Assembly (NCBI GenBank): GCA_010093605.1
Contig: MU004203.1
Location: 24,156-88,155 of the forward strand
Direction of reading: 5' to 3'
Length of the DNA: 64,000 nt
Origin: Lophium mytilinum
Taxonomy: Eukaryota > Ascomycota > Dothideomycetes > Mytilinidiales > Mytilinidiaceae
Below are positions 1 through 64,000 of the stretch, piece by piece (positions within the stretch are counted from its first letter, which is position 1; each line of letters begins with the position of its first letter). Below the pieces are notes generated by a model. It saw only the letters and a program-made list of their open reading frames with translations, was not told where the DNA came from and did not search any database. The position numbers and the translations under genes are program-made.

Positions 1-1957
1 ATAGTATTATAAACTATAGGTACTATATAGGCGTAATATAAATTAGTATAGAAGTTAAACTTATAAACCTTTATATTACCTATTACCTAGTAGTCTACTA
101 GGTTAGCATCTTCTAACTAGAGGGGTTAGTAATTACTTAGCTAGCTAGCGCTAGTTAGCTTTAGTAATATCTAGCTTAAGTATCTACTTCTATAGTTTTA
201 ATATAATTATAGCTAGTATAGGTTTCTAGTACTTAGGTTTCTTAAAAGACTTATAAGAACCGGCGGCGTTAAAGTATTAATAATAGTAGTCTATTATAAT
301 ATTACGGTAATTAAATATGCTTTTATATAATTTCTACTTAGGTTTAGTATTCTAGTTAGAGTAACTAGTGTATTAAATTTTATATTATAAGAGGCCTTTC
401 TTACCTATAGTAGGATTAATTATTACTTTATTAATTTATAAGTTAATAATATTATCTATATTCTATTATTTAAAACCTTCTTTATTAACCTTAATAGGGC
501 TAGGTTTATTATATATTTAACCTTTAAGCGGCTTATAAGTAACTCTATAAAGTAGCTATAGATAAAAGATATTAAATAGTCCCTTTATAGTATAAGGCAG
601 TATAAGCTTATAGGCGCTATTATTAATAACACAAGTAATTTTATAGAGTTCTAGTTACTTATAGTCTAAGAACTTATTTAGGTATTAGGTCTTAATATTA
701 CGCGCGTTAAGTATTACTTTATCCCCTATTTTAAGCTTAGGCGCGGGCTTCTACTTAAGATTTATATAGTAAGCTTAATATATCTATACCTAGATAAGCT
801 TATTTTATAAGAAGAGTCTAAGCTTATTAATTTATTTAGTAAGGGCGTTAGCTTTTTCTTAAAGTAATTTCTAGGGGCCTTTTAGTTTAATAGTATTATT
901 AGCGGGCTTAAGTTCTAAGCGTAGGTTATAATCTTTTATTACTATAAATAGTAATACGCCTATAGTAGTTTTAGCGCAGTTAGCCTTAAATTTAGTAATA
1001 GATAGAAGATCTACCTAGTTATCTTATTTATAGTTAATATAGGCGCGTAGGTATTACTTAAGTACTATATTAGTAATCTTAGTCTAGCTATCTATTTTAG
1101 AGTAAAATAATAAGGATAACTTAGGTAATATACTAATACGGGCGTAGAGGTATTTCTAGAAGTATAATATAAACTATACGCCTTAATTAGATACTATAGT
1201 ATATAGATAGCTTTTCTTATACTAGACCTATTTAATAAATACTTAAATAACTAGCTTAACTTTTATAGAATTAAGCGGGATAAACTTCCTCTTCTTAAAT
1301 AGTTAATTAACTATAACTATAATATACTTATATTATCTACTCTATTATTTATAGATAGATAGTAGTCTAATAAAGTTAACTAAGATATTATACTAGTAGT
1401 AATATAGAATTAGTAGTAGATAAAAGAGGCCTTACTTACCTTCTCTAGAGTACTTTAAATAGTAATAGGTTATATAAGCGCCTATATACTAATTAACGTC
1501 TAAGGTTATAAAAGGCTAGTAGTAGTAGTTACTTAACTTAGTATATATAAAAGTTATTTCTATATAACTAGCTAGTTTAGATTTATATATAGAGCGGATA
1601 ATAGCTATATATAATTTTAGTATAGCTAGTATATAGAGCTTCTTATAAATATAGAGAAAGTTATTAATTATATTATAGTTACTAAGTTTAATTTATAGGT
1701 AATAATTGCAATAAAATTAAGCTAGTAGTTAGCGCTTATTATAGTACTTAGCGTATTTAATTACTTATATAATAGAGTTAGCCTAAGAAGCTTTCTTAAT
1801 ATAGTATAAGATTTAGTTACTAGTAAGAATAGGTTTTAATATATTATATAGCTTAGCGTTAGAACTATATTCTTACTTAGAAGAATTATTTATCTTATCT
1901 TCTATAGAGGGCTCCGGCGTAGAATTCTTTATTTTATCTACGCGCAGCTCTAGGCGT
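1..1957 (-). mobile_element. 3' portion of outer (older) LTR retrotransposon, interrupted
   Basis: This stretch resembles the 3' (integrase-side) part of the neighbouring inserted element: about 600-760 matches about 2930-3070 base for base over long runs. It is read on the minus strand. The element resumes at 10252 after the inserted copy and ends in its 5' LTR at 15946-16165. Its 3' LTR must lie left of the window. It is broken throughout and shows RIP-like loss of CpA/TpG, so it is a fossil. Family is Ty3/gypsy by similarity to the nested copy. Confidence 0.7.
1953..1957. repeat. 5-bp target-site duplication (GGCGT), left copy
   Basis: GGCGT directly precedes the LTR at 1958 and recurs at 10247-10251 directly after the LTR ending at 10246. 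A matched 5-bp duplication is usual for Ty3/gypsy integrases and fixes both ends of the inserted element. Confidence 0.85.
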
Positions 1958-2178
1958 TATTATAGTGTAATATAGAATTATAATAGAAAACTAGATAGTA
2001 TTAAGTATATAATAAAGTAGCTATAAGAAGAGAGAGTAGGGCGCGGAGCGCCGGCTAAGAGATAGGCGAGGCTGGCGCTAAGCGAGGTTATATAATAGTG
2101 GCACGTAATAGAGACTATATAACGCTATTACTTATAATAGAAATATATTATAATAAGAGTTATATTATAGCTATAATA
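1958..2178 (-). repeat. 3' LTR of nested element
   Basis: This is near-identical to 10026-10246 over 221 bp and is followed by the pyrimidine run CTACCCCCCTCTAAAAG, which is the polypurine tract on the element's own strand. It retains a GC-rich core (GCGCCGGCT) inside otherwise AT-rich sequence. Confidence 0.85.
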
Positions 2179-5100
2179 CTACCCCCCTCTAAAAGAAAGC
2201 TATATATATATAGCCTTTCTATTCTAGTATATATACTTACTATAAGGTAGTTCTTCTTTAGCTAATTATTTTAATAAATTATCTTATAATTATATAGAGG
2301 GCCTATTATTCTTCTAGTTTATACTAGGCGCGCGCTAAGCCTTAAATATAAGGTTAGTAATATAGTTAATCTTATATATATTACTAAGCTTTATTTACGC
2401 AGTCTATATAGTGCGGCGTTATCTAATTTATATAAATTAGTAATAGCTTAGCCGGCCGGTACTAGTTAAGTTTAGTAAGGTAGAGAATAGGCGTTATCTA
2501 TAGAGCGTTATTATAATTAGGGCAAGTAGCGGCTTCTAATATTTTAGTTTCTAGAAGGACTTATAGGGTTCTTTTACTTTTAGGTAGGCGTAGTAATAGT
2601 CTATAATAATATTATAATAGTTAGTAATACTAGTATAAAACTTCTATTAAGAATTAGCGTTCTATTTAGAGTAACCGGTATAAAGAATCTTATACTAAAG
2701 TAGGCCTTTTTAGTTTATAGCTAGGTTAAGTATAGCTTTATTAATACGTAAGTTAATAATTTTATTAACGTTCTACTACTTATAGCCTTCTTTATTAATT
2801 TTAATAAGTCTAGATTTCTTCTAGATCTAGCCCTCTAATAGCTTATATATAATATAATAAAGTAGCTATAAATAAAAGGTATTAAAGACTTTCTTTATAG
2901 TGCGCGGTAGGAATAGTTTATAAGCGGCGTTATTAATAACTCTAGTAACTTTAAATAGACTAAGCTATTTATAGTTAAGTAACTTATTTAGGCGTTAGGT
3001 CTTAATATTACAGGCATTAAGTATAACTTAGTTACTAATTTTAAACTCTATAGCCGGCTTCTATTTTTAATTAGTAAACTCTTCTTATCTAGCTTAAACC
3101 TATATTAACTTATTATAAAGAAAGAGGTAAAGATTATTTAGTTACTTAGTAAGCGCGTTAGCTTTTTCTCTTAGGGGTTTCTATAGTCCCTTAACTATAG
3201 AGTTATTAGCTAGCTTAAGTTTAGAGCACGGGTTGTATTCCTTTATAGCAATAAAGAGAGAGATACTAGTAGTTATTTTATCTAAATTAGCTTTAAACTT
3301 AGTAATAGATAGAAGATTAGCCTAGTTATTCTACTTATAATTAATATACGCGCGTAAGTACTATTTAAGTACTATATTAGCAATTTCCGTTTATCTATCT
3401 ATTTTAGAATAGAAGGTAGTAGAGAGCTTTAGCTTTATTCTAACCTAAGCGTATAGTTACTTCTAGAAGTAGAAGATAAATTAAGGGCCTTAATTAGAAA
3501 TAATTAAGTATAGGTATTCTTCTTCTTACTATATCTATTTAATAAACGCCTAGGTAATATTCTTAGCCTCTATAGAGTCTATAGTAATAAACTTTCTCTT
3601 CTTTAAGAATTAGTTAACTATAACTATAATATATTCTAGCTTACGGCCCTATTATTTATAGATTAGAAGAGGAGTAATAAAGTTAACTAAAATATAGTAC
3701 TAGTATTAGTCTAGAATAGGTAAAGGGCGGAGTAGTTCTTACTTACCTTTATAGGAGTATTTTAATCTCTTATAAGTAAGATAGGCGCTAATATATTAAT
3801 CTATATAAGAGGTTATCTATAGCTAGTAATAGTACTTATAGAGTTATATATAGATTAATATTATTCTAGTATATCTAGCGGGCTTAGGTTTATATATAGA
3901 TTAGATAATATAAGTGCATAGTTATTTAATATTTAGAATATAAAGCCGCTTATAGATATAAAGAAGGTTATTAATAACTTTATAGTTATCTAGTTCTATT
4001 TATAGATAGTAATCTTAGTAGAATTAAGTAGAGAGCTATTATTAGTTGCGGCGTTTAGTATATTTAACGGCTTATATAATAGAATTATCTTTAGAGTGCT
4101 TTTAAACCTTTTAAAGAATCTAGTTACCTATAAAAACTATTTTCTTAGATAAATTATTTAGCTTATTATCTATAGGCAGCTTCTTAGTAGTAGAATTATA
4201 TAGCTTATTTACTAGGGGTATCTTATTCTTCTTAGGGTGTTCTTATAGGCGAGCTAGGCTAGAGTTATTTATCTTATCTAGTATAGCTGCTGTTTAAGAG
4301 GCTGCAGGTGTAGTTAATTTCTTAGGGCGGCCTCTTATATAAACTTATAGTCTAGAGTTATTTAGCTTATCTAGAGTAGTAGGTAGAGGGCGTATATATA
4401 TAAATACTACTAAGTAGATATTATTATTATCTAGATAATTAAATTTACTAAAATTATATATTATTTTAGCTAATTTAATAGAAGTATATTTAAATGTGTT
4501 AGTAAGAATGTATATAAGCTTAATAGTATAATGCATTTCTAGTTTATAATTAGATAGCTTTAGTATAACTTATTTTTAATACTTATACCTATTATCTTCT
4601 AGGGCTAGCTTATTATCTAGTTATTAAGTTAGTAGATTAGGCTTCTTATTCTACTTGCCTAGTTTATATATAATCTTAAAGTTAAACTTAGCTAGAAACT
4701 TAGCCTAGTAAGCTTATTAATAATTAAGGCGCTTAGAAGTTATAAATATTTAAAGGTTCTTATAATTTAAGATAATATTAATAGGGCTATTATACTTCTA
4801 TTCTTATCTAGTAAGCTCTAGTCTCTATTCTTTAAAGGTAAGTACTATGGCAAGAAGCTCTTTATTATAGATAGTATAGTTAATCTATTATAGTATTATC
4901 TATTATAATATAAAGGCAACTAGGTAAAGTGTTCTATTAGGCTAGACCTATAATAGCACGGTAGTAGTTATATAGTTAGAGGAGTTATATTTAATCTAGG
5001 TATTATAGTTAGAGTTCTATAGTGTAAGCTATAGGGCTATATAAAAATATTCTTTAATATTATAGAACACTTTAGCTTTATTACTATTATCTAGCTATAG

Positions 5101-8100
5101 AAATTTAAAGCCTTTTTATATAGTAGAGATTAGCATTATTAGTAGAGCTATAAATATAGAGTAGTTAGCTATAAAGTATTAATAGAAATTATAGAAGCTA
5201 AGGAACGCTTATACGTCTTTAAGGTTTTATAGTATTAGCTAGTCTAGTACTATTTAGACCTTAGTTAGATCTATTTAAACTCTATTAACGCTAATAAGTA
5301 CGCTAAGATATTTAACTTTATTAATAGTAAATTTATATTTATAGATATTAAGAAACAGTTCTATATTATAGAGTTTAGTAATAACTATAAGAATATGCGC
5401 TTTATACTCTTCTAGTATATTACTATATATTAAGATATTATCTATATATACTATATAGAAGTTATTAAGGTATTTTTATAAGGTATTAGTTAAATATACT
5501 TAGAAGAAACTAGATGCGTTATATAAACTAAACGGAAGAACTATAAATTTAAATAAATTCTAATAAGTAAGAAAAGTAGTCTTATATTTATTACCTTCTT
5601 TAATATAGAGGGCGTTAAACGCGCTAATTATATCTAGTTTTATATAGTACTTAACTTTAGCTAGTAGTATAAAAGTATCTTTTACTAGCGGTAGTATATT
5701 ACAGCTCTTAATGCTAATTTTATTAAGGCTATAGTAATTAATATAGACGCGGAGTCCTCTACCTAGTTTCTTAATAACTAAAGTTAGTGCCGCGTATAAT
5801 AAGAAACTTAGTTAAATAAAACCTTTTACGCGCATCTTATTAATAAAGGCTTTAATAATAGCGGCTTAATCTCTTAAAAGGCTATATACTTTCTAGGCAG
5901 GCGGCTTAGAATTAGGGAGAACGTTAATTATATAGTCTATTAGTTAATAAGATAGAAGTTTATTAGCTTTATAAGGATTCTATACATCTACTATATAGTA
6001 TAGCTAATTAGAAAGTAGCTCCTTAATCTCTTTATTAGTAATTAGAGGTTAATTTATCTTCTTAAAGAACTTCTAGTAATTAAAAGAATTAATAGTAAAG
6101 ATATTAGCGGTAAAAGCAGCTATTTACGCATTATATAGAATATTATTAAGTTTAGTAAGGCTATATAGGGCTAGATCTATTTCTAGTATAGAGGTATAAG
6201 GCGTAGAAGAATAAGTTATAGGCTAAGGCTTTCTATATTTATATTTCTTAATCTATTACAGCTTTTCCTAATTATTATTCTAGAGTTAGATAATATAGTT
6301 CTCTTTACTATTATGCTAGAGCTTTTAATAGGCTATTATTATATTCTTTACCTTATCTAGTTCTAGGCTAAGCTTATAATACTTACTAAAGACTTCTTAA
6401 AGTACGGTATTATATATGCGCTTACCTACTTAGGTAATATTATAGTTCTTACTATTACTCTATATATATCTATATCTATCTATATATAGATAATAGTTAT
6501 AGTAGAAGTCTTTATTAAAATTAAGGGCGTGCTCGCCCTATATAATATTAGGCTTATATTTCTTAAACTATAGTATTTCTAGAATAATATTATAGCCTTT
6601 AAAGTTAGTAATATAATATTATATATTCTCTATATATACTTCTAAGAATAGTATAAGCTAGGCCTTATAGGTTATAAGTTTTATAAGTATACTATTAGCT
6701 AAGCGTAGAGGAATAGAAGTAGCTAGCGGCATTATTATTAGCTTATTAGCTTTAGCGTATAATTAAGAGATAAAGGTAAAGTAGAAGCATTCTATATTAG
6801 TAAGGCAGCGGCTATTAGTTATACTATTAGGTATATAAATTCTATACTTAAAATTTAACTACTTACTATAAGTAATATCTTAGGTAGAGTTAGTAGAATA
6901 AGCTAATAGTTAGATTTCGCCGGGCTTAGAAGGCGGCCGTTCTAATTCTTAAATGCGGGCTATAATAGTACTTAGAAAGAATTCTATATAGCTCTATCTA
7001 TAACTATAGTTAGAGTCTATATAAAACTCTCTCTCTTACTATTATTACTACTACTACTATTACTAAGAACGCTAGAAGATAAGACTTTATTAGCGTAAGT
7101 AATAATAGCTAGGTTCTCTCTATTACTATTAATAGAGATTAGGTTATTATTATTCTTATTAGTATAGTAGATTATAGAAAGCTTTAGTTTAAGGCTGTTA
7201 TTAGCTTTAAATAGGCGCTTAGTTAGCTTGCGCTTAGATAGAGGGGGGTTCTAAGCGTAAGGGCGCTTAGAGTTATTAGCTTAGTAACCCTTCTTAATAT
7301 AGTAAAAGTAGTAGCCTTTAGTGCGCAGAACCGCTATAACTATAGAAGAAAGGTAAATAGGGTAGTTATCCTAGTTCTTACTATTATTGCGAGTTAATAG
7401 TTATTATATATAGCTCTACTTAGGGCGGCAGTCTTAGTAGTTATTTAGTTAGTAATTACTTAAGTAGTTATTATAGTAGGTAGTATAGAAGCCGGGTAGT
7501 TAAGAGAGCTAGGTAGTTATATTATACTAAGTATTATTCTAAAGAAAAGCTTTAGTGCGGAATACTATAGTAATAAGTATAGGCTAGTCTTAATAGCTAT
7601 TAGCGCTGCTAAATACTTAGCCGCTAAGATCTAGGTATAGAAGGCGCTTAAGCTATTCTTTCTTAGAGGTAAAGGGCATCTAGTTCTTATTATTAATATT
7701 AGTTATCTCTTTAAAATATAGTATATATATATTCTATAACTTATAGCCCTTTATCTTTATCTTAGGGCTATAGAGGATATTATCTATATACGCAGGCTTA
7801 TTAAATATAGTAAAATATAGGTCTATATATATAAATATCTAGTTAAGAATTATAAAGTTCTTATTTAGTAAGGGCTTTTTAAACTAGGTATAGCTATAGA
7901 TAGTAGCTTCCGCGTAATTAATATAGTATAACTTAATATATTCTATCTTACTCTACTTATCTAGGTAGGCTAGGCCCTTATATTAGAAGATAGTATAGGT
8001 ATAGCTCTTCTAAGATAGGTATTAGTATTTATTACTCTTACTAGTAAATTTCTAGAAATTCTAGAATTTAGGCTTATAGTCTCTATAGAGCTATAGGTAT

Positions 8101-10025
8101 ATAAGCTAAGTTATAGTATTATTATCTATAATAGTAAAGTTATTATAATTAGTATTATTATTATTATCTCCTAAGTTATAGTTAAGGTTGCCTGCGGCGG
8201 CGGCAGTAGCGCGATATAATTAGGCGGGTACTAATACTACTATCTAGTTTACTTTTAGATTAGTATACTACTACTTATAGGTAAGGCTAAGCTCTTTAAA
8301 GTAGTTGCGCTAGGTTTATAGATAGTCTAAGTTTTATTATACTATAGTAATATCTTATTAAAGGGCTTTATTTACTAAATATACTTTAGTAAGAAGAAGG
8401 GTTTTAGCTTTATAAGCTTTATATTTAGTAGTAAACTATTAAGTATACTTAGTATATGCCTTCTTATTTTCTAATTAAAGACGCGTAATATCTTTATTTA
8501 GTTAAGTAACTTTAGCTTATAAGTATAAAATTTTAGAGTTATAAGCTTTAGCTTAGTTATAAAGGGTAGTTAGCTCTATATTATAGGCTTAGTAGTCCTC
8601 TTAAAGAGATTCTAGGTTCTACTAGAATATAGTAACTCTATAGTATATATTCTTATAATACTTAGAAACTATATTATAGAACGCTTTAGTAGAGTTAAGG
8701 TTAATATTAATAGTATTAGTAACTCTATTATAGTTAATATAGAATATAATTCCTTTAGCTATTATAGTAAAGTATAACTTTTAGTAGCTAGAGTTATAGC
8801 GTGCTAACGCTAATAGGCCTAGTATAGGTAATTCTAGATTAGGTTATAATAGTATAGCCGCGGTAGAGAGGCTCTATACTAATAGAGGTAGATTATTATT
8901 ATACTTTTTAGTGCGCTAGGCTTTCTAAGTAAATAGAAGGACTAGGCTAGCAGGAATATTATTATTTTATATATTAAGAAGGTCGCCTTAAGTAAAGTAG
9001 ACTACTTTCTAGAGGTCTATAGCTAACTAGAATTAGATATTATCTTCTTCTTTATTAAGTTTATTAAGCTTCTAGTTTAGTTATTTATTATCTTTCTTAT
9101 TAGAGGTAATATAGAACTCTTTATTCTCTAGATTAAGAGAGTAGTTACTGCGCTAGAGAATAGTAGTTAGCTAGAGGCGGCTATAGGCTATAGCTATACC
9201 TAGTCTAATAGTACTAGCCTTTAGTATATAGAGTTTACTATAAGTAGCTAGCTACTCTAGAGTAGAACTAATACTATATTAAGATAATTTACCTACCTTT
9301 TTATATAAGGCTTTAGTATATTAGGTCTCTTATTATACTTACTAAGAGTTAGAGGCTAGTATTAACTAGGTAGCCTAGCTATTAAGGGTAGAGTATAGGT
9401 TAGTATTACTACTCTTATTAGTATATATACTACTAGAGAAAGCTTCTAAATATACTATAGTATATTTACTACAACTTAGTATTATAGATAGTTAATTCTA
9501 CTTATAAAGTCTTAAATAAGAAGAAACTAGTATTAGAAGGTTGCGCTAGTTAACTATTACTAGTTAGGTAATAGTAGAGAGTATTCTAGTAGGTAGATAA
9601 TAGTCTAGATAGATAGATAGTAGTCTAGGTAGATAGATAAAGAAAAAGATTAGTATAGAAAGAAAGGTTATAGGGCCTCTATAAAAGCTAGAAAGTAGAT
9701 ATAGCTAGTATACTTCTTAGTAGCTATTCTTAGCAGCTAAGCTAATTAGTAAATAATAATAACTGCGCTAGGTTTAGTTAGTTTACGCGTATATAGATAG
9801 GGGCGTAATAGTAAGTAGATTTATAGAGCCTGCGCGTTAGTTTATATAAGTAATAGAGTATAGTATTCTTACTATAAGGCTATAGGGCCTTCTTCTATTC
9901 TAGTTTCTTATTAATAAAGGTTATAGAAATTAAATTTAGTAGCTATAGAGGTGCCGGTATATATATAGATAGATAAAAAAGAGTACTTTTAATATCTTCT
10001 AGAAGCTAGAAGGGTAGCTACTTTA

Positions 10026-10246
10026 TATTATAGTGTAATATAGAATTATAATAGAAAACTAGATAGTATTAAGTATATAATAAAGTAGCTATAAGAAGAG
10101 AAAGTAGAGTATAGAGCGCCGGCTAAGAGGTAGGTAAGGCTAGCGCTAAGTAAGGTTATATAACGGTGGCACGTAATAGAAACTATATAACGCTATTACT
10201 TATAATAGAAATATATTATAATAAGAGTTACGTTATAGCTATAATA
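10026..10246 (-). repeat. 5' LTR of nested element
   Basis: This is the right-hand 221-bp terminal repeat, followed by the GGCGT duplication at 10247-10251. The sequence just inside it (AGAAGGGTAGCTACTTTA) is shared with the corresponding position of the outer element beside 15946, so the two elements have the same 5' leader. Confidence 0.85.
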
Positions 10247-10251
10247 GGCGT

Positions 10252-13200
10252 AATCTTATTTAGCGCGTATATATAACTACTAGTTAGGCTCTATTATTCT
10301 CTAGCTAGTTAAACTTACTAAGGTTATATATTATAGAGGCTAGGTCTATAATAGTATACTTAGGGGCGTTATCTATAAGAATATAAGCTAGGTTAATAGT
10401 ATAGTATATATTAGGCTTATAGTTAGTAGGCTTAAGTATAACTTACTTCTAATATTTATAGTAAGCGTTATCTTTAAAGGGCTTATTACTAGGTTATTAG
10501 GTAAGGAGATCTAGCTTATTATTAAGCTTACTAGGCTTATATATAATTTTAAAGTTAAATTCTACTAAGAACTTAGCCTATTAGGCTTAATAATAGTTAA
10601 GTTATTTAGTTATTATAAATATCTAAAGATTCTTATAATTAGAGATAATATTAATAGAACTACTATATTTCTAACCCTAGCTAGTAAGCTCTAGGCGCTA
10701 GTCTTTAAATACTAGAATAATAGTAAGTAGTTCTTTATTATAGATAGTATAATTAATCTACTATAGTATTATTCTTTATAATATAAAAGTAATAGGTTAT
10801 AGAGTGCTATCTAGTTGTATTTATAATAGCACGGCGGCAATAGTATAGTTTAAGAAGTTATACTCTACCTATATTTTATAATCTAGATTCTATAGAGCTA
10901 GCTAAGAAGCGTTTCTAAAGTATTCTTTAATATGTATAAATATATATACTTTATCTCTATTATCTTTCTAGAGGAATTTAAATAATTTTCTAGCGGATAA
11001 TATAAGTATAGAGAGAGGTGCTATAAACTTAGAATATCTAGTAATAAAATAATAATAGAAGTTATAGAAACTAAGAAAAGCCTATATATTTTTAAGGTTT
11101 CTTAGTATAGGCTAGTTTAAAACTATCTAGACTTTTATAGAATCTATCTAGATGCTATTAACTTCTATAATAACGCTAAGGTATTTAACTTTTTATATAG
11201 TAAATTTAGACTTATAAATATTAAGAAATAAGCTAGCGTCTTATAACCTTATAACTATAGATATAATATATTTCTTATAATTATCTAGGTTATTACTAAA
11301 GATAAGGACGTTATCTATATATACTATGCAGTAGTAATTAAGATTCTTACGCAGCGTATTATTAATATAAGCTTAAAATAAGCTAGGCGCGTTATAGAGC
11401 CTAAATAGAAGAACTATAAATTTAAATAGACCCTATTATATTAGAAATACTATCTTATACTTATTATCTTCCTTAATATATAGGGCGTTAAATACGCTAA
11501 TAACGTCTAGCTTAGTATAATATTTAGCTTTAGCTAGTAGAGTAAGTATATCCTTAATAAGAGGTAGTATATTATAGTTTTTAACTATAATATTATTTAG
11601 TCCTCTATAGTTAATATAGATATAAAGGCCGCCTCTAGGTTTTTTAACTATAAGTATTAAAGTAGTAAAGAATAATAAGCTTAGTTAAATAAAGCCTTTA
11701 GAGTGTATTTTATCTATAAATACTTTAATAATAGTAGCTTAATCTCTAGAGAGACTATAGACCTTCTATATAGGTAGTTTACTATTAGGCTTAAGATTAA
11801 TAGCGTAATCTATATCTTAGTAAGAGAGTAGAATATTAGTAGCTTAGGGGTTCTAGGTATTATAGAGATAGTAAAGCTAATCTAGAAGAAGTTACTTAAT
11901 TTCTATATTAGTAATAGAAGGCCTATTTATTTTATTAAAGAACTTTCTATAGTTAGCTAGGTTAATTATAAATAGATTAGAAGTAAATATAGCTTATTTC
12001 TAGGCTAGAGTATTATTTAGCTTAGTAAGCCCATAGAGAGCTAGATTATTAGCTAGAGTAGCTTTATTCTTTTAAGTATTAAGGTGGTAAAGCTTATTAA
12101 AGTCTTTATCTTATAGTTAGATAATAGCGTCTTTCTTACCTTTACGGGTAAGCTTATAATATTTAGTAAGAAAGTTATTAGCTTTATCTAGGTTAAGGCC
12201 TAGCTTATAGTAATAGTTAATAATTTTATATAAGGCGCTATTATATAGCTTTTTTCCTTTATAGGTAATATTTTAGTTATAGCTATTACTTTAAACTTAT
12301 TAGTAGCTATCTATATATAGATAGTAGCTTATATAGTAATTAAAATTAAAATCTAGTATATACTCTCCCTATATAGGGCGGGGCTTATAGCGCTTAAACT
12401 AGAGTATACTAAGAATAATATTATAGCTTTAAAGGTTAGTAATATAGTACTATAGATATTTAATATACGCTTTAAGTAATAGCGTAATTTAAGCTTTATA
12501 TATAACTATTAACGTTAAGTAGCTATTAGTAAGCTATAGTAGTATTAGTTTAGTAATTATAATAGTAATAAGCTTATAGGCTTTTATAAATATTTATAAT
12601 ATAAAGACTAAGTAGAAGTATTCTATATTAGTTAAATAGTAACTATTTACTATAGTAGCTAGCTTAGTGCTAGTACTAGAGATATAAATTCTATATTTAA
12701 AGTTAAGTTATTTACCTTAGATAACTTCTTTAGATAAGTTAATAGCGTAAATAGAGAGCTAGAGTTTATCTAGCTTAGGGGGCGGTTACTCTAGTTTATA
12801 AATATAAGTAACTAGTATACTTAGATAAATATCTACTAGACTCTAACTATAACTATAGTTAGAGTCTAGGGAAAATTCTTACTATCTAAGAAGTTACCCT
12901 GTAAGGAGTTTCCTTATATAGTATTATTATTACTACTATTATTATTAATAGTAGCTAGAGTGTTACTAACTTTAATATCTAATATAGAATTATCTATATA
13001 GAAGACTATAGATAGCTTAAGATTAAGTCCCTTCTAGAAGTAGGTAAGTTATTATTAAACTATTTCTTTAGATAAGGGGGCGCTCTTTATATAGAGTTAA
13101 TTACAGTCTAATATATAATATTCTATCTTAAGGTAGTTATAGTAGACTTTTTCTATTTATTTACTAAGTACTATAGTTACTATAGAAGGAAGATAAATAT

Positions 13201-16165
13201 AATAGGTATTACTATTATAGTTATAGCGGCGTAAGCTATTATCTAGAATAGATTATAATAGGTATATCTTAGAGTTATAGTTAAAGTCCTATTAGAAGCT
13301 ATAGTTAGACTTATTAGTAAATAGCTTATTAGTATATTTTAAGCTATTACTATTATTCTATAATAGGCCGTTAGTATATTACTATTTATAGGCGCGTTTA
13401 TACTTACTAGCAAGATATAATACTGCGCAGTTAATAGTAGTAACTAGTTCTAGCTAGAACGTGTAATTATTAGCGGCGCTAAAGACCTAAGTCTAGAGTT
13501 TAGGGGTAATAAGGCGCTTAAGCTATCCCTTTTAATTAATAAAGTCTATCTCTCTATTATTATCTATAGAAATTATTTTCTAGAATTAAAAAAGAAAAAT
13601 AGACTATTTCTTATTATACTTTATATACGCCTGCTAGCTATAGAGCTTATTATTTATAGCTATAGCCTTATCTTTAATTATAAAGTAAGGATCTATTATC
13701 TTAAATATCTCTTTAACTATTTTAAAGTTATTATTTATAGGGCGGTTCTATTAGGTGTAATTATATACTACGCTATTAGTAAATTCTACGCAGTATAATT
13801 TAATATACTTAAGCTTAGCTTATTTATTATAGAAGTCTTAAGGCTTATTATAAAAGATAGTATAGGTATAAGCTTTCTATAACTTATATTTAGACTAGTT
13901 ATTATATTCTTTAAACTTCTATAGATTATAGAACTTAGTATATAGCTAATATAAGTTTATAGTAAGTTAGGCATTTAGATTATATAAAAAGTTAGGTTAG
14001 ATAAAGTAGTTATAGTTAGGTAGCTTATTATTATTACCTTTATTAGAGAGGTAGCTATAGTTACTATAGATAGTAGTATTATCTTATTAAAAGCGTATTT
14101 AGAGTTACTACTATATAGCTTACTTATACTTCTTCTTATATTCTATACCTTAGGCGTAGAAGGTATTACACTACTATTAGTATTAATTGCGGTAAAAGAT
14201 AACCTTAGCTATCTTAGTAGTAAGGCCTTTAATCTTAATACTAAGCTTAGTAATAAAAATAGCCTAAGTGTTATTTTTCTTATACTTATCCGCCAGCTAC
14301 TTAGTAAGGTAATTACGCTTATTAGTAAAGTTAGTAGCGTTAGTATATATTTTAGCTATCTAGTAATAGAGCTTTATATATTAGTTATAGAGGTTTTTAA
14401 GTTTAACCTTATTTAACGTGCCTATATTCTATTCTTAAAGTTATATAATCTTATTATCTTTCTATTAAATAGCTACTGCTATATTTCTAATATCTTTATA
14501 CAACTTACTAAGTTCTTAGTAATAGTTAAGTAGTGCGGCGTAAATACTAATATATTTATCTTAAGCTATATTATAGAGCTCTTCTATATTATTAATAGTA
14601 ATATTAATAGATTAGCTATCTCTAGCTTAGTTAATAGTAAAGACTATACTATTATTATTATCTATAAGAAGGGACTATTAATAATTAGATAGTTAGCCGC
14701 TAGTTCTAGTAGAACTTACGCCTGCGTTAGCTATATTAGGCTATTCTTAGCTAGGGTAGATATTTAGAATTATAATAGTATTAGTAGTAGAGGTAATAAC
14801 CTAGTTCTTTAAGGTAATTAGAATTTAAAAGAAGAATAGAGTAGTTAGGTTAACTAGAAGTTTAGTAAATTAGATAGCTTAAGGTATAGATATTTTAGTA
14901 AATAACTTAAAGTTCTCTTTATCTTTACCTTAATCTACGTAGGCCTTATTATTAGTATTCTACTTAGTAGAGTTAGTAAGGTTATAATAGGCTTAGCTCT
15001 ATAGTAGGTTAGTACTAAATTAATTTAGTAGAAGGTAAATATCTAGTTCTAGATTACTAAATTTCTTAGTACGCGTAGTAAAAGCTTCTAGAGTAATAGT
15101 TAGTTAGTATTATAATACTCCTCCGCCGCCTATTTTATAGGCGGCTTTCTTTTCTTAGTAATTAAGCTTATACGCCTTTTAAGAGTTAGATATAAAAGTA
15201 GATTAAGTAGCTTATAAGTTAAAAGAGAGAGTAGAAGTATAAGTAAGAATAACTAGATACTTATTAGCTTTACTACTAGAAGGTAAATCTATAGGCTGCG
15301 CGCTTAATATAGTTATACTGCGTAGGGTTAGAGTTTTTCTACTATAGCTTAGTATAGCTAGTTTTAGAGGTATTATTTATATCTTTACTAGTAAGCGTTA
15401 GTTAACTATCTAATAGAAAGGTTAGTATAGAATAGAGAGTATAGATTCTCTATAAAAGCTTAAAAGTAGGTATACTTTTAAAAATAGCTAGCACTATTAT
15501 TACTATTCTTAGCGGCTACCTTTAATTAGTAAATAAAAATAGAATAACTACGCATAGACTAGTTAGTTGCGCGTAATAGAAGTAAGTAGATATATAGAGT
15601 CTACGCGCTAGCCTATTACTAATAGAGTATATATAGTTCTTACTCTATTATTAAAAAGTAAGTGCGCTTATATTAGTTAGTTGCGCGTAATAGTAAGTAG
15701 ATTTATAGAGCCTATATGCTAACTATAGTAGATAGGGTATATAGAGTTCTTACTATAAGATTATAGAACCTTTTTTTAAGTCTTTCTATATTAATATAGA
15801 GAGTATTAAATTTATATATTAAAATTTTAGCCTATTAAGATAGCTACTTAGTTAATTATAGGGTTACTAGTATTAGTAGATAGATAGGTAGATAAAAAGA
15901 GAGTGCTTCTAGAAACTTCTAGAAGCTAGAAGGGTAGCTACTTTATATTATAGTATAATAGTAGATTATAAAAGAAGACCTAATATTAGTATATATAGAT
16001 AAAGTAGCTATAAGAGAGAAAGAAGGGCGCGGAGCGCCGGCTAAGAGGTAGGTAAGGCTAGCGCTAAGCCTAGTTATATAATAGTAATTATATACTAGAG
16101 GGTATATAATACTATTATATATATTAGAAATATATTATAATAGAAGTTATATTATAGCTATAATA
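10252..16165 (-). mobile_element. 5' portion of outer LTR retrotransposon (same family, older)
   Basis: This is the continuation of the interrupted element. A reverse-transcriptase core relic (Y-x-D-x context) lies near 11,300-11,345 on the minus strand, and the 5' LTR is at 15946-16165. The leader carries an internal duplication (about 15,553-15,650 and about 15,675-15,760). It is RIP-degraded with many breaks and has no intact frame. The LTR differs clearly from those of the nested copy, consistent with an older insertion or a distinct subfamily. Confidence 0.75.
15946..16165 (-). repeat. 5' LTR of outer element
   Basis: This 220-bp sequence begins TATTATAG and ends CTATAATA. It shares the GCGCGGAGCGCCGGCTAAG core and the terminal 30 bp with the nested element's LTRs, but diverges in the middle. 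Confidence 0.75.
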
Positions 16166-17045
16166 AGTAGTATTTCTCTAGTTAATAGTACTCTTAATAT
16201 CTATCTATATACTATTTCTTATCTATATAGTTTTTATACTTTCTATATCTACTATAGACTCTAGCTCTATCTAGCTACTTAAGCCTAACTTAATAATAGA
16301 ATAGATACCTTTTTTAATAACTATATTATAGCTATAGACTTAGTACTACTATACTACTATACTAAGAAGAAGAATAACTAATATAAATATACTATTCTAG
16401 GTACTTTCTATCTAATATATTACTTCTAGGTAATATTTATAGTACTTAGAGGCGTCTAGAAAAATATATAGTACTATACTAACTATAAGGCTATCTATAG
16501 CTATCTTAATAATCTAGAGAATAGACTAAGATTCTATCTTACTATAGTTATATAGAGATAGTATACTACCTTTACTACTAATAACTTAGCTTAGTAAGTA
16601 TAAGTTAAAAAGGGGGAAATTAAGCTAAATATACTATTTTTACCTTTTATTACTAACTATATTCTTTTTTTCTATACTTAGTCTTTTTATACCTACTTAT
16701 ACTAGCTCTAATAGTAGCCTTAGGTATTTAGTTTTAAAACCTAGTATAATACTAGCTATTTTATTATTACTATTATATATATATATATCTTTACTTAAGT
16801 AGAAGCCTTAATCTAGTAGAAGTTCTACTAATTACTATAAGCTTTAATTAAGTAGAAGTATTAAAAGTTATTAATCTAATACTTTTAGTTATATAACTTC
16901 TAGAACTACTAGTTATATATAGGCCTCTTCTATAGTATATATAGATAATGCCCCTTAAGTTAAATATAATAAGAATTTACTTTAATAGAGGATGCCTTAG
17001 GGGTGTTTTAGTTACTTATAGTAATAGTTAGAATTATAGTTATAG
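16166..17045. repeat. AT-rich, RIP-like unclassified repeat remnant
   Basis: The composition is the same CpA/TpG-poor, TpA-rich type as the retrotransposons, but I see no match to them. A purine run (AAAAAGGGGGAAATT) near 16,603-16,617 could be a polypurine tract of another element. There is no open frame. The block ends near 17,045, where CA and TG dinucleotides reappear at normal frequency. Confidence 0.5.
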
Positions 17046-18480: not shown

Positions 18481-19453
18481 TCATCTTCTCTTCTTGTTGT
18501 TCAATTCCCGCATCTCACCACTGGCCTTACTTCCATCCGGGAGTATTCTTTCCGTCTTTCTAATCTGCCATAGCAGAACTGGGTACGCCAGATCGCACGC
18601 AAGAGCTGTGACCCATATGAAGACGCCAAACGGGCTGAAGACATACGGAAAGCCTTCGGGCCAGAAATACCATCCAGAGACCCAAACAGCTTCTGCACCC
18701 ACAATAGAACCAATTGTCCGGGATGCCCTGCATTGAAGCCTTAGCATGAATTAGAAGAGAGAGAAAAGAGTAACGTAAGAGGTGCCTCGCAGCCAAAGCA
18801 GCTGCACAAAAGCATTCCTTGGTACCCTTCACTGAGACCCAAAGTCTCAGTTCTATTGCCAGTTAATAGAAATCAAGAACTCACCAAATCCCCCATCCCA
18901 CACCTCCCGAATGCCCCCGAACCCCGAGCTGCACCAGCGCCGCCACACTCCCATACACCTGATTAGCACCGACGCTCCAGTAAGCCAGCTCCGTCATATC
19001 CGCTTCAAGGTCACCGGAGTACCTCTTCGCCCTACCCCCTCCCACTCTTTCCTGAACCCACCACGCGGCAAAAGCATAATGGCCCCACGCCGCCAGCACC
19101 ATCATCGCCGCAAAGACCTTCCCTAGGTTCCGCGCTACGAGAGGGCTGTGTGCCCATTCCTTTCGGCCATATACTAATACCGCGTAGACGAGCGGGATGT
19201 CGAGAACTAGCCAGATTGTGAAGACGAGGCGCTCAAGACGCTCCTCGGCAATGAAGAGACCATAGACGGCTTCCCACGCGAGATTGTTGGCTAGCGCGAA
19301 AAGAGGCATGCTGTAGGTTTTGTTGCGGCTAGCAGCGCGGATGGAGAGGATGTAGCAAAGAGTCCAGCAGAAGCCGCCGATTTGGAGCAGGAGGTCGTGG
19401 GCTGGGATTAGGTATGGGGAGATGTGGGGTGGGGGATGGTCTTGGGAACCCAT
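18481..19453 (-). CDS. Integral-membrane terpene cyclase, Pyr4/PaxB type
   Basis: I predict two exons, 19453-18885 and 18727-18481, around a 157-nt intron (18728-18884) with GTGAGT and GCAG boundaries. The joined frame gives 271 residues. Fungal Pyr4/PaxB/AusL-type cyclases protonate an epoxide or olefin of a meroterpenoid or indole-diterpene precursor and cyclise it within the membrane. Family signs are the N-x-A-W-E-x-x-Y motif near residue 57 (NNLAWEAVY), KEWAHSPLVARNL near residue 98, the W-S-x-G-A-N-Q segment near 160, and GWGIWASRTIG across the splice junction followed by WYFWPEGF. About seven hydrophobic segments are present, and the length is close to the family norm of 240-270. The splice restores a tryptophan codon (TG|G) at the end of a frame that otherwise stops. 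I see no prenyltransferase, monooxygenase or synthase next to it, so its product is unknown. Confidence 0.8.
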
Positions 19454-20028
19454 TCTGAGTTTAAGGAGAAGACTGAAGGGAACAGAGGAAGCCGAAGGAA
19501 ATACAGGAGGCTGAAGGGAACAGAGGGGGCTTGAGGTCTTACATAGTGGAGGACTGGTGGGGCTTGGCGCTGAGTCAGCTTCGTAATGCAGGATTTCTGA
19601 TGATACATCCAGAGATAGCTGTTCGGATATGTCAAGGGCCCTTTCGACTTTGGAGGAGCTCGAGAGTATATGTAGCTTAAAAGTTTATGTTGTGGAAGGT
19701 ACTGTTGCCTTCGATGGAGACTTGGCAGAGTATCTCTCGAAAGGGGGAAACCGAGAGAGGGAGTGTTTTCTAGCAAAATCTCCAGTGATGACACGCCCAA
19801 TTTAGTTCCCGAGGAGTATACGACCAGGATTAGTCAAGAGAAGTATCCGAGACTGAAACCCAGACTGAATACGATACCGTAAAAACTGCTTGACCTACAG
19901 GCCCAGACGCGCCTCCAAAAAAGATAGAGATGTGGAAAATAACGGAAACGGCCTTGGAAGACGAGCAACCCGATACCACCGCATCTGCATCACCATCTTT
20001 GCGTGTATATTCACACCCTTGAAGGACT
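19454..20028. other. Intergenic, promoter side of the terpene cyclase
   Basis: This lies between the start of the cyclase gene and the 3' end of the deaminase gene, both on the minus strand. It holds only overlapping short frames with no recognised domain. I see no clear promoter element. Confidence 0.4.
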
Positions 20029-21225: not shown

Positions 21226-22408
21226 ATGCGTCCAATTAACAAGAAGGTCGCGCACAAAGAGGAAGTAGAGTTTGAGGAAGAAGAAGAGTATGAAGAAGAA
21301 GAGGAAGAGTATGAAGAAGAAGAAGACGAGGAGGAAGAGTCCGACGAAGAAGAAGAACTTGTCAACGAGGAGCCCCCGAAGGATGTCGATTGCTACAAGG
21401 TCCTCGGAGTAGAGAAGACAGCTACTGCAGATGAAGTGAAGAAGGCCTATCGCAAGGCAGCACTTGTGCATCATCCAGGTAAATTTATATTCTACTCTTG
21501 AGAGACGATATGAGAGCATCTATCTAGTCCCATTGTCTCGACTTCCTCGTACTAAAACTCCCCCAGACAAGGTCAAAGAAGAAGACAAGGCCGCCGCCCA
21601 CACTACCTTCCAGCGCATCGCTCTCGCCTACGCTGTCCTATCAACTCCTCACCGTCGTGCCCGCTACGATGCCACCGGCCGCACTGACGACTCCCTCTAC
21701 CCTGGCGGCGACGATGATGACGGCCCCTTCGACTGGCAATCCTTCTACCGTGCTCAATTCGAAAATGCGGTCACCGACGCCACTATCGAGAACGCCCGCA
21801 ACGGCTACGTCGGCACCGAAGAGGAGAAAGCGGATCTTCTCAAGGCATACGAGAAGGTCAAGGGCGATATGGCCAGGATCTATCAGCTCGTTATGTTCGC
21901 AGAGCCGTGGGAGGACGAGGAGAGGTTCCGGGTCATTATCGATGCGGCTATCAAGAACGAAGAGGTCACGGGTTGGAAGAGATACATGATTGAGACGCCG
22001 TACGATCGGGAGAGGCGCATTGCGAGGGCGAAGAGGATCCGGGATGGCGAGGCGAAGGAGCTAGAAGATGAGAAGGCTAAGAAGGCTAAGAAGGCGGGCG
22101 GGAAGAAGGGCGCGCAAGAATTCAAGGTGGAGGGCTTCGGCGATCTCGCGGCTATGATTCAGCAGCGACAGAAGGCGAGGAGCGGCTTCTTCGATCGACT
22201 TGAGGAGGCCTATACGCCGGCATCGCGGGGCAAGAAGCGACAGAGCGAGCCGCCGGAAGAGGCGTTCGCTGCAATGGGCGAGAGAATGAAAAAGAAGAGC
22301 AAGCAGAGCAAGCCAGATGAGGCCGAGGAAGAGTCTGAGGAGGCTGAGGAGGAGTCTGAAGAGGAGAAGCCGAGACCTCGTCGTCGCCTTGGTCGTAAGA
22401 AGACGTGA
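21226..22408 (+). CDS. J-domain co-chaperone, DNAJC9-like
   Basis: I predict two exons, 21226-21478 and 21567-22408, with an 88-nt intron. Its splice (CCAG|GTAAAT to CCCCAG|ACAAG) rebuilds the J-domain HPD motif (HHPDKVK), giving 364 residues. After an acidic N terminus (about residues 13-50, almost all Glu/Asp) comes a J domain at about 54-125 ([32 protein letters not shown] ... RRARYDATG). It is followed by the helical domain typical of DNAJC9 and S. pombe Spj2-like proteins ([28 protein letters not shown]) and a Lys/Glu-rich tail. Such proteins stimulate Hsp70, and human DNAJC9 also acts as a histone H3-H4 co-chaperone. Nuclear action fits the basic tail ([11 protein letters not shown]) but is inferred. 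The 5' leader is C-rich. Confidence 0.85.
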
Positions 22409-47700: not shown

Positions 47701-48185
47701 AGCGACCCAAGAGGAACGAATAGACAGCGGATTTCGACTCCCTTGCTACGGTTGATGAAGGGGGCTCGACGCTACGACTCCTGAGATGGAAGAATGTGTA
47801 TAGTCTGATGGCGCGAAGTTGGCGGCGGCCGTTCTCTCATCGTGCCCAAGAGCGCGTTGGGCCTTTTGCTGCGCAGTTGTAGCACTTCACTCCGGATGCT
47901 TGTTCGACGATAACTCAGGATAACGATTCCGCGCATACCTGTTAGAGAGTCGCTCTTCAGCCTCTCGTAAAGCGCGCAGCTGCAAACAAGAATGAAGACA
48001 ATCAGTTCCAAAGGTTGGTGATGACGTCCACTCCCCAGCTCTTCCGCACTCCAACCATGCGACAGATGATGGGAGCCATCACTAACACAACACCACAACA
48101 AGCCAAAATTCTCCAGACAAGCAGCCAAAGCAAGGATGATTTCTTCTTCGAAGCCCCAGACAAGCTGAGAAGTTCAATGAAAAAA
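44777..48185. other. Gene-poor region
   Basis: Short frames only. A degenerate 30-45 bp duplication around TGCCGCAAGCCATGG lies at about 45,240-45,330. A CTG/TTG trinucleotide run is at about 47,088-47,110. A minus frame at 46,939-47,244 and a plus frame at 45,640-45,900 have no recognised domain. Confidence 0.35.
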
Positions 48186-48332
48186 AGTTCGCGTCGGCCC
48201 GAGGCAGTGCAATACGAGCGACACTGTGCCCCCGGACATAGGCAAGCCCAGCGGCCCAGGAGCGGTTTCCAAAGAGTGGATTAATCAGAAGGAACCCCGT
48301 AGGGCTATCCCAGCGATTAAACTGAGAAGAAC

Positions 48333-48387
48333 CTGAGAGGATTGTTAGCAGGAGGATCAAGAAGAGTGAGAGGGAAGAGGAACTTAC
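48333..48387 (-). other. Intron 2 of U2 snRNA
   Basis: 55 nt, GTAAGT donor, GCTAAC branch-site match 13 nt or so before the CAG acceptor. It lies directly after the branch-site recognition segment and before stem IIa. Confidence 0.9.
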
Positions 48388-48418
48388 AGATACTACACTT
48401 GATCTAAGCCAAAAGGCA

Positions 48419-48471
48419 CTGAGAATTTTATTAGCCAAGGTCGAAAGGAGAGGAGTGAGGTCGAAACTTAC
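48419..48471 (-). other. Intron 1 of U2 snRNA
   Basis: 53 nt, GTAAGT donor, GGCTAATAA branch region and TCTCAG acceptor. It splits the U2 segment that pairs with U6 (helix II), leaving only about 10 nt in the first exon. Confidence 0.9.
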
Positions 48472-48512
48472 AAGAGAGCTGGAAAAAGGAGGAAGGTCGG
48501 GGGGCGGGCGGT

Positions 48513-48520
48513 CTTATATA
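48513..48520 (-). promoter_or_regulatory. TATA box of the U2 gene
   Basis: TATATAAG on the minus strand, about 31-38 bp upstream of the estimated U2 5' end, the distance expected for a Pol II core promoter. Confidence 0.7.
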
Positions 48521-48591
48521 CCTGGCTGACAGAGAATTTGCCAGCCGCTTACTAAGCTATTGGTAAGCTGCTGCCTAGAATTTAGGAGCGT

Positions 48592-53225: not shown

Positions 53226-56200
53226 GATGTCGGTCAACGCGGAGGTATCGAGCAGTGGGGCCTAGCAAGTGTTAGTAGCTGATGCACCAGGACACATCAA
53301 GAACTTACTTACGTGACCACGCCGATGAAGAGCGGGCGTGCGCCCTCTGTTAAACCATAACGCAGGTGTCATAAGGGGTGGCGTCCAAGCGCGAGTCGCT
53401 GTGGAAGAAATGAAGTTTAGTTGAAGTTCTGAAGGTGAGGGGCTCTATGTTGCGGAAGTGAGGAGCTGCGCGAGCCGTAAACTTACCTGACGGTCGGTGG
53501 TCTGGCTGCTGCCATGTTGTCGGAGAGGCTGACGGAGTGGCCCTGTCTGCGGTGGGTGGCGTGAAGCTGGTCTGGTTGTGTGATGAGGTTGGTGATGGTA
53601 GGTCAGAGGGAGGACGGTGAGCTGTTGGTGGTTGAAGCGGCGGGGTGACGGCGACTTCGAGCTCGCGGCGGAAGTATTCTCCGACTCTGCCCCGTGGAGC
53701 CTAGTAGTGGATTGGCGGAGTGTTGGAACCAAGCCAGCTGCTTCACTGGGAGAGCTGTGAATTCCAGAGCAGTGAGCAGGCACGGCTAGGAGAACAAGGC
53801 TTCACTCATGGAGAGCTGTGAGGGGTAGAGGGTCACGAGGAAGCCTGTCCTCTTCCAGGTGTGTAAAGCTCTCTGAGGAACGGACCTTGAAGAGATTGGG
53901 ACCCGGCCGAAGGAGGGCTGGAGGCCTTGGTTCCCTCCATGGATCATCGACGCTAGACGTGAAAGAGAACGTCTCCTACATTGTGAGAAAAGATCTGAGA
54001 TATTGAATTTGGCCTTGCAGCGTGTGTTGCCAGCCCGGCAACATCCAGTCCGGTTGCAAATTGGCACAATTTGGATATTGAGGCTTTGATAAGAATTGCT
54101 CGAGAAAAAGAATATCACCACGGCTCTGGCAAACAAGCCTGTGACTCTCTTCGGAGCCACACAGTAGTACTATCTCCACAACTACCCAGGTTCTCAAAAC
54201 TCCTGAGCAAAATAGATTGACCATCGCTGTGTCGTATCTTGCTCCCGCATGGCAATCGGGAAGCCCATATAATGATTCAAGAGGCAGTCCATAACATGTT
54301 TCATACCGCTACCTCGATTCATACTTGCCCACATAGGTGCTATGTCCCCCTTCAACTACTACTTGGGCCCTGATCTTCTTCTCGCACAGCCGACGCTTTC
54401 CATTTTTCCCCCAATTATGCACCTACCAGCCGAGGTGTTTCTGCTGCCACATAGACCTACCCCGTTATGTCGTAGAGGATGCCATGTCTCCTGGCGCGGT
54501 CATACCGAACGCCGCACCGCTTCGTAACAAGTGTATGTGAATAAAGAGCCCGATGCGTCTCTTGTTCTAGAAATTGACGGCTGGGACGACGACGGAGCCG
54601 ACGCGGAAAGGCGCTAGGCTCTCGTGAAGAGAGAGAAGCGAAGGCGTCAAAGAAGAGCGGAGAGGGTATGGCAAATGGCGGAGATGATGCTGCGAGCCGG
54701 GAGCATAGACGCTTCATCGCCATCTCAGTCTGTGGTTTGCTACGAGTTGTTAGACCTTTCTAGCCAATAAGGCGTCTATGCCACGTATTCAATGAGCTTA
54801 CGCAGAGTCTTTACGATGTTCCGATCCTCTGTGACTGTCTACGCGGCAACTTCTCTCACGATGTCAGGAACACTCCCGGTTGGCTGTCAGGCGAGTTGTG
54901 AGGTGACTGAGAGAGCCAGCATCTGCTCGCTCAGATCTACAGTCTAAAAAGATGGAGATTCGATGCTTCTCAGGGTTTGTAATGATCAACAGATTATGTT
55001 TTCTTCAGACAGGGATAACTGTACAAAACGTTTTATCGTGAAAGCCGATGCAAGGATGTGCAATAGCACGAAGGGAATCTTACCTTATTAGAAATCATGC
55101 ATTCGAAGGACATAGCCGTCAGCGCCCTCGAATACAAGAACTTCTCCGAGTTTGTTGAGCTTCAGGTACTCGGTAGAAGTGATCAGCCGGCACAGTCTCA
55201 AAAAACGCGTACAATCAACAGCGCCTTGGTCTGTGACATACGAAGCCTCCGTGACTGTGACTCGGATTGGGCTAGCTGGTCTTTCCTCTCCGTACCGGAA
55301 GCCGGCCGGTCGTGTGCTTCGCCGGATGACTGCATGGGCTCTCGGTCGTGGTATGCGGCCGTGAGGTCCTCGCTGTCGCACTTGCTCTTCAAGAATAGTA
55401 TCTCCGTAGTCTCCTTGGTGCGTGGCATCCTTGAAACCGAAGATGAACGGTTCATGGAAAGCCTCGAGAGGGGACGAGGGGCTCAGCGTTGGGTGGAAGA
55501 GAGGAGACACTACCCAACCTTACGGCATGCGACCTGGAAGCCAGCCGCAAGTGAAAGAGAGATTGATGTTGGGTAGAGCTGCGAGACACGCGGCGCAGAT
55601 CAAACGAACCGGTCGGGGAAAGGCTTCGACAGAATGACTGCGAAGGCATCATTAGCAATAGTTGGTCCTTAACGCAGCGATGCAATGGAGTTGGGATCCT
55701 GTAGAGTTTGACGCCGGACCTGCCGTGGCCGTACCTACATGATCTTGTCCCAGACACATGGGAACTTGGAGGCTTGTGAATGTCGACTCGCCATGACCTT
55801 GCTGCGACTGCAAGTGAATCCGGTGACCTAGCATCTCAATTCAGTCTCGGTAAGCTCAGTCCAATGAGCCACCAGAAGCAACTGAGAGCCGTGAAGACGT
55901 GTTCGACAGTCGAGGAAGGGTGTAATATCGAGGAAGACACGGGAGTATTTTTCTTTTTGTTGCTGGTCGCGCGGCTAAGACGACAATCTGGACGCTCATT
56001 TGGGGCGTCAGTATACTCGGCGTCGGTGTAGACATCTCCCTCTACCCTTGAGTCATCTGGGGGGATGCTGTAGCTCATTGCGTCCGTCATATTGAAAACT
56101 CTAATTCCAGCATTGTCGTTAGCTTCTCCAGCTATCCTCTTCATGGTGCGCTCGTCCACGACGATGTGAAGTTGAGCTGCTTCTGGCGTTCTTGGCTCAA

Positions 56201-63651: not shown

Positions 63652-63659
63652 AAAAAAAA
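63652..63659 (-). terminator. Pol III terminator of U6
   Basis: Run of eight T on the minus strand directly after the U6 3' tail (GTAGCTTCAAAA). Confidence 0.8.
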
Positions 63660-63715
63660 TTTTGAAGCTACTCTTTGATAAAGCGTGTCATCCTTAGTGC
63701 AGGGGCCATGCTAAT

Positions 63716-63765
63716 CTGGAAGATGTTAGTTTTGAAGCTGAGTGTTGGGGGGTGGGGTGGTACAC
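63716..63765 (-). other. Intron of U6 snRNA
   Basis: 50 nt, C-rich, donor GTGTAC, branch-site match ACTAAC 13 nt or so before the CAG acceptor. It separates ACAGAGAAG from ATTAGC, that is, between the ACAGAGA box and the AGC catalytic triad. Confidence 0.9.
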
Positions 63766-63828
63766 CTTCTCTGTGTTGTTTCAAATTGACCAAATGCCCG
63801 AAGGCGAAGTGCGTTAAATTTATACCAA

Positions 63829-63836: not shown

Positions 63837-64000
63837 GCTCTATTGGCGAAATTGCTTTCACATGTGACCAGCCACCAGCCACCAGCAACTAGACTACTAC
63901 GCCACACCGTCAATGTCACAGTTTCTCCGTATGTTCATCGGCGCTAATGTCTACATTATCGCATACTTGTTGTTCCTCCATCTCACCCAGCTTTTGTTGT
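63837..64000. other. U6 upstream flank to window end
   Basis: A short duplicated CCAGCCAC string is present. Nothing else is recognised. Confidence 0.3.

Follow-up and report, generated by a model that had tools for sequence, protein, structure and literature searches.

The 64-kb window, i.e., the whole stretch of DNA that was analysed, carries on its minus strand a locus that we take, with a probability of roughly 0.86, to be a functional U2 snRNA gene from a filamentous fungus with two ordinary spliceosomal introns inside it. A U2 gene split by two introns had been proposed in the first-pass annotation, and the proposal stands, on the minus strand, both in the match of the locus to the Rfam U2 family and in the agreement of its joined exons with yeast U2. 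Read along this strand, the locus consists of TATATAAG, 30 nt, CCAGCTCTCTT, an intron of 53 nt, TGCCTTTTGGCTTAGATCAAGTGTAGTATCT, a second intron of 55 nt and the remainder of U2, with its parts placed as follows:

48513..48520, minus strand: TATATAAG, a TATA-box-like element by its sequence, with a putative promoter function
48472..48482 (approximate), minus strand: U2 exon 1, CCAGCTCTCTT, about 9-11 nt, placed by identity to yeast and by helix II pairing
48419..48471, minus strand: intron 1, 53 nt, GTAAGT...GCTAAT...TCTCAG, placed by splice motifs, removal tests and pairing
48388..48418, minus strand: U2 exon 2, 31 nt, with stem I and GTAGTA, placed by Rfam and the yeast alignment
48333..48387, minus strand: intron 2, 55 nt, GTAAGT...GCTAAC...CTCTCAG, placed by splice motifs and removal tests
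about 48183..48332, minus strand: U2 exon 3, with stems IIa, IIb, III and IV and the Sm-like site ACTCTTTGGA, placed by Rfam, folding and sequence

The element TATATAAG stands about 38-40 nt upstream of the putative U2 5' end, exon 2 ends 3 nt past GTAGTA, and in the mature RNA the two introns would fall after about nt 11 and nt 42. Exon 3 runs into seven consecutive T residues (48186-48180), with 48183 as the approximate U2 3' end, and this 7-T run suggests that the gene may be transcribed by Pol III.

The membership of the locus in the U2 family is apparent even in the unspliced DNA, on which the covariance-model search advocated in the first-pass annotation recovers U2: the Rfam model RF00004 matches 48429-48183 of the minus strand at 83.6 bits (E 5.3e-15), as against a gathering score of 46, and its alignment sets aside 67 nt where intron 2 sits. 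The 19-base U2 core AGATCAAGTGTAGTATCTG has a single site in the 64-kb window with up to three mismatches allowed, and occurs in none of 100 shuffles. The branch-site recognition sequence GUAGUA is likewise intact, with its conserved context kept.

Excision of the two introns had been claimed to restore the U2 order exactly, and it does so: the joined exons are identical at 42/42 positions to nt 6-47 of the S. cerevisiae U2, taken as printed in PMC12359043, with yeast nt 1-5 lying outside the local alignment. Exon 1 by itself is identical to yeast nt 6-11, and its putative extent agrees with the first exon of about 10 nt that had been annotated. GT-AG removals of 25-150 nt each were tried in the U2 5' region from 48560, singly (56) and in pairs (420). 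No other pair equals the annotated one, which scores 84, with the next at 78 and the unspliced sequence at 68; the two introns also head the single removals (78 and 74). Both introns, for which the annotated lengths and GTAAGT, branch and TCTCAG motifs are found at 48471-48419 and 48387-48333, fit a donor GTRWGT, a branch site RCTRAY and an acceptor YAG, which are given as fungal intron patterns in PMC5832005. The composite pattern GTAAGT-N25-55-CTAAY-N3-20-CAG has two starts in the window, namely those of intron 1 and intron 2; it yields three matches (two with one start) where 0.91 are expected, and, since at least three are reached in 8 of 100 window shuffles, the intron motif alone is not significant.

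Of the two, intron 2 falls between two conserved U2 blocks and is close to certain. A second CAG lies inside U2, 11 nt downstream of the acceptor of intron 2, and is a possible wrong acceptor, the use of which would result in a broken RNA. A duplication of one intron from the other is not proposed, as their interiors resemble each other weakly (equalled in 26 of 1000 shuffles) and in part through the shared branch site.

The evaluation of intron 1 draws on a further spliceosomal RNA gene, that of U6, which lies 15 kb from U2 in the window and is itself interrupted:

63656..63805, minus strand: intron-containing U6 snRNA gene (Rfam RF00026, 58.9 bits)
63765-63716, minus strand: U6 intron, 50 nt, between ACAGAGAAG and ATTAGC, its bounds read from the sequence

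The U6 intron combines an atypical donor, GTGTAC, with a typical branch site (ACTAAC) and acceptor (CCAG), and is situated directly before the AUUAGC segment. As a separate observation, CCAATAG occurs upstream of both U2 (48557-48563) and U6 (63840-63846) on the minus strand, and is the sole 7-mer shared between the upstream segments compared (250 versus 195 nt).

Intron 1 is harder to prove than intron 2, and less certain, because its end, TTCTCAGTGCC, resembles the 5' end of an animal-type U2, TTCTCGGCC. One could thus suppose that only intron 2 is real and that U2 begins near 48429, within what is read here as intron 1, which is where position 1 of the Rfam U2 model aligns. The score against L001, the animal-type U2 from genome_contigs used for comparison, is likewise no better for the additional removal of intron 1 (89 with both introns removed and 90 with intron 2 alone removed). 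Neither Rfam nor L001 favours the removal of intron 1, because the last bases of this intron are what looks like the animal-type 5' end. However, a start near 48429 would leave U2 poorly paired with the U6 of the same window: the predicted energy of the U2 5' end with the U6 3' domain is -13.2 kcal/mol for the spliced form and -4.2 for the unspliced form, and it is the spliced 5' end that is predicted to form U2/U6 helix II. Exon 1 ranks second among 332 upstream 11-mers in this pairing, and shuffled versions of it are as good in 4 of 2000 cases. Such a start would also entail a weaker 5' hairpin (-4.7 versus -8.3 for the spliced form, part of the difference stemming from an additional helix of 3 bp that does not belong to stem I), and would place TATATAAG about 90 nt upstream as opposed to about 40 for the putative start. 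Moreover, the full set of donor, branch site and acceptor would have to be there by chance: when the 142 nt preceding exon 2 were shuffled 5000 times, a motif-bearing intron with equal restoration never appeared, whereas any motif-bearing intron was seen in 116 of the shuffles and an equal score by any GT-AG removal (35-120 nt) in 9. We accord a U2 with intron 2 alone little probability, and proceed with the gene interrupted twice. If intron 1 is real, it sets a practical trap, in that the 5' end as positioned by the standard U2 model falls within the intron.

A distinct concern is that the locus might be an unused or decaying copy of U2, with an intronless gene elsewhere supplying the RNA. 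When exon 3 is folded alone (150 nt), helices form where stems IIa, III and IV belong (z = -2.28 versus shuffles), although its sub-domains folded singly have weak z-scores (-1.8 and -1.3). This expected fold of exon 3 argues against decay, as do the complete splice signals of both introns and the retention of the TATA-like element together with the conserved U2 blocks; further, a copy made from RNA would be expected to lack both introns and promoter. On the other side, the minimum-energy fold predicted for the full 192-nt spliced RNA (-64.9) is devoid of the canonical U2 stems, and that of the unspliced RNA (-74.6) has stems III and IV, folding a complete snRNA from one sequence, with its proteins left out, being a weak test. 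As modelled, the non-canonical fold of the spliced RNA would count against an intact gene rather than in its favour. The Sm consensus is AUUUUUGG-like, in agreement with the Rfam line of the U2 match, and the Sm-like site ACTCTTTGGA, while correctly placed, has two C where U is usual, which again would suit a decaying copy. The mixture of intron-bearing and intronless U3 copies described for eight fungal genomes in PMC5832005 points in the same direction. All considered, we give very little credence to a decaying copy, and hold to a working U2 gene.

The first-pass annotation had also called for a search of related genomes for the same intron positions, and this could be followed in part. Relatives were sought in viral_contigs and genome_contigs by the exact 19-base U2 core, a search that misses changed or split cores; it returned no match in viral_contigs and five in genome_contigs, on four stretches from three contigs. 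All four stretches match U2; a U1 match is present as well in L001 and L003, and histone stem-loops in L001. Because of these matches we take the stretches, which are assigned to bacterial or cyanobacterial bins, for eukaryotic DNA. In 5/5 of the matches the core is directly followed by TTCTT, with no intron at this point. Neither a fungal relative nor any relative with the two introns of U2 was found by this search in viral_contigs or genome_contigs. The loop of stem IV reads TTGCACT in the U2 of the window, L001 and L003, and TTGCAGT in L002, the alignment being poor in the 3' half. We also observed at 775-793 of L003, on the minus strand, a second U2 core that soon diverges from U2, in DNA binned as a cyanobacterium.

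The surroundings of the gene are informative regarding the host. Positions 1-17000 of the window form an AT-rich block, with a GC content of 26-29% up to position 16000. Over 1-16000, TpA/ApT is 1.83 and (CA+TG)/(AC+GT) is 0.10, compared with 0.78 and 1.17 over 18000-64000; the block thus carries a RIP-like signature, i.e., one of repeat-induced point mutation, and such a signature points to a filamentous ascomycete as the probable host rather than a red yeast. The GC skew is positive across the whole of 1-16000 (0.13-0.23), which is unexplained by RIP on both strands. The block has no tRNA and no Rfam match, and its longest stop-free frame has 130 codons. Outside it, a Pfam run on 20 open frames of the window and the search for structural RNAs recovered the following:

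18884-19684, minus strand: partial Pyr4-like transmembrane terpene cyclase (Pfam PF25129, E 2.8e-34)
21479-21566: coding intron of a DnaJ gene, 88 nt, GTAAAT...CCCAG, splitting the Pfam DnaJ domain
54963-55047, minus strand: near-threshold match to the C/D snoRNA snoR38 (44.3 bits, gathering 45)

The terpene cyclase fragment adjoins the AT-rich block and is in keeping with a filamentous ascomycete as host. The DnaJ intron is firm, since it leaves the two parts of the DnaJ domain in different frames; it has ACTAAA as its branch region, which departs from RCTRAY. The other coding introns of the host are candidates from a crude script. The snoR38-like snoRNA is possibly intron-encoded, as an open frame ends ahead of the match, with a GTAAG between the two.

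Beyond the sequence of the locus, its fit to U2 and the motifs of its introns, which are directly observed, we infer a course of transcription, splicing and feedback. The TATA promoter would drive transcription of the gene as a precursor, from which the existing pool of spliceosomes would excise both introns. The joining of exon 1 to the rest would create the strands that U2 contributes to U2/U6 helix II and to stem I, and the excision of intron 2 would place the branch-site recognition region beside stem IIa. Unspliced U2 is expected to form helix II poorly; hence, the supply of U2 would depend on splicing capacity, constituting a positive feedback. This would involve no start-up paradox because a cell always inherits some spliceosomes. 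As to origin, the U2 introns might possibly have entered by reverse splicing into a spliceosomal RNA. A broader proposition, which we regard as rather doubtful and offer tentatively, is that the introns of U2 and U6, the two active-site RNAs of this spliceosome, arrived by reverse splicing while it was at work, in stretches through which the two RNAs pair or which adjoin the catalytic core, such that the core could be renewed only by itself and the resulting self-reinforcing loop would set the number of spliceosomes. If splicing proceeds as supposed, this would be a two-intron U2 in a host that has an interrupted U6 as well. Two ideas would then become testable, namely, that introns enter structural RNAs through reverse splicing at the active site, and that snRNA introns couple the supply of spliceosomes to splicing capacity.

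In the literature searched, which omits most subscription journals, we found no report of a U2 intron in an ascomycete. The U3 snoRNA genes of fungi often have an intron near their 5' end, with two introns in four genes from three species, and no small structured RNAs other than U3 and U6 are said to be known as frequently interrupted (both as given in PMC5832005). These U3 introns are akin to those of the U2 described here in lying near the 5' end of the RNA and in having the same motifs; in contrast, an interrupted U3 entails no self-dependence, because U3 is outside the spliceosome. The U6 of fission yeast has an mRNA-type intron that is spliced during U6 maturation and is thought to derive from reverse splicing, according to PMC10484740. 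That intron is near the catalytic nucleotides of a core snRNA, as is the one in the U6 of the window, although the fission yeast case concerns U6 and the present one U2. Intron-bearing U6 genes in other fungi are said to have been described by Canzler et al. in 2016. For U2 itself, Takahashi et al. reportedly found in 1993 one mRNA-type intron in the gene of Rhodotorula hasegawae, said to sit immediately past the branch-site recognition sequence. That intron is also spliceosomal, and its reported site resembles that of intron 2, whereas the present gene has two introns, the first after about 10 nt, and a host that is probably an ascomycete. Since a single U2 intron is known in R. hasegawae, the U2 of the window belongs to a known kind and varies it by having two introns; while interrupted U2 has thus been known already, the combination of two U2 introns with an interrupted U6 is new as far as our searches could show.
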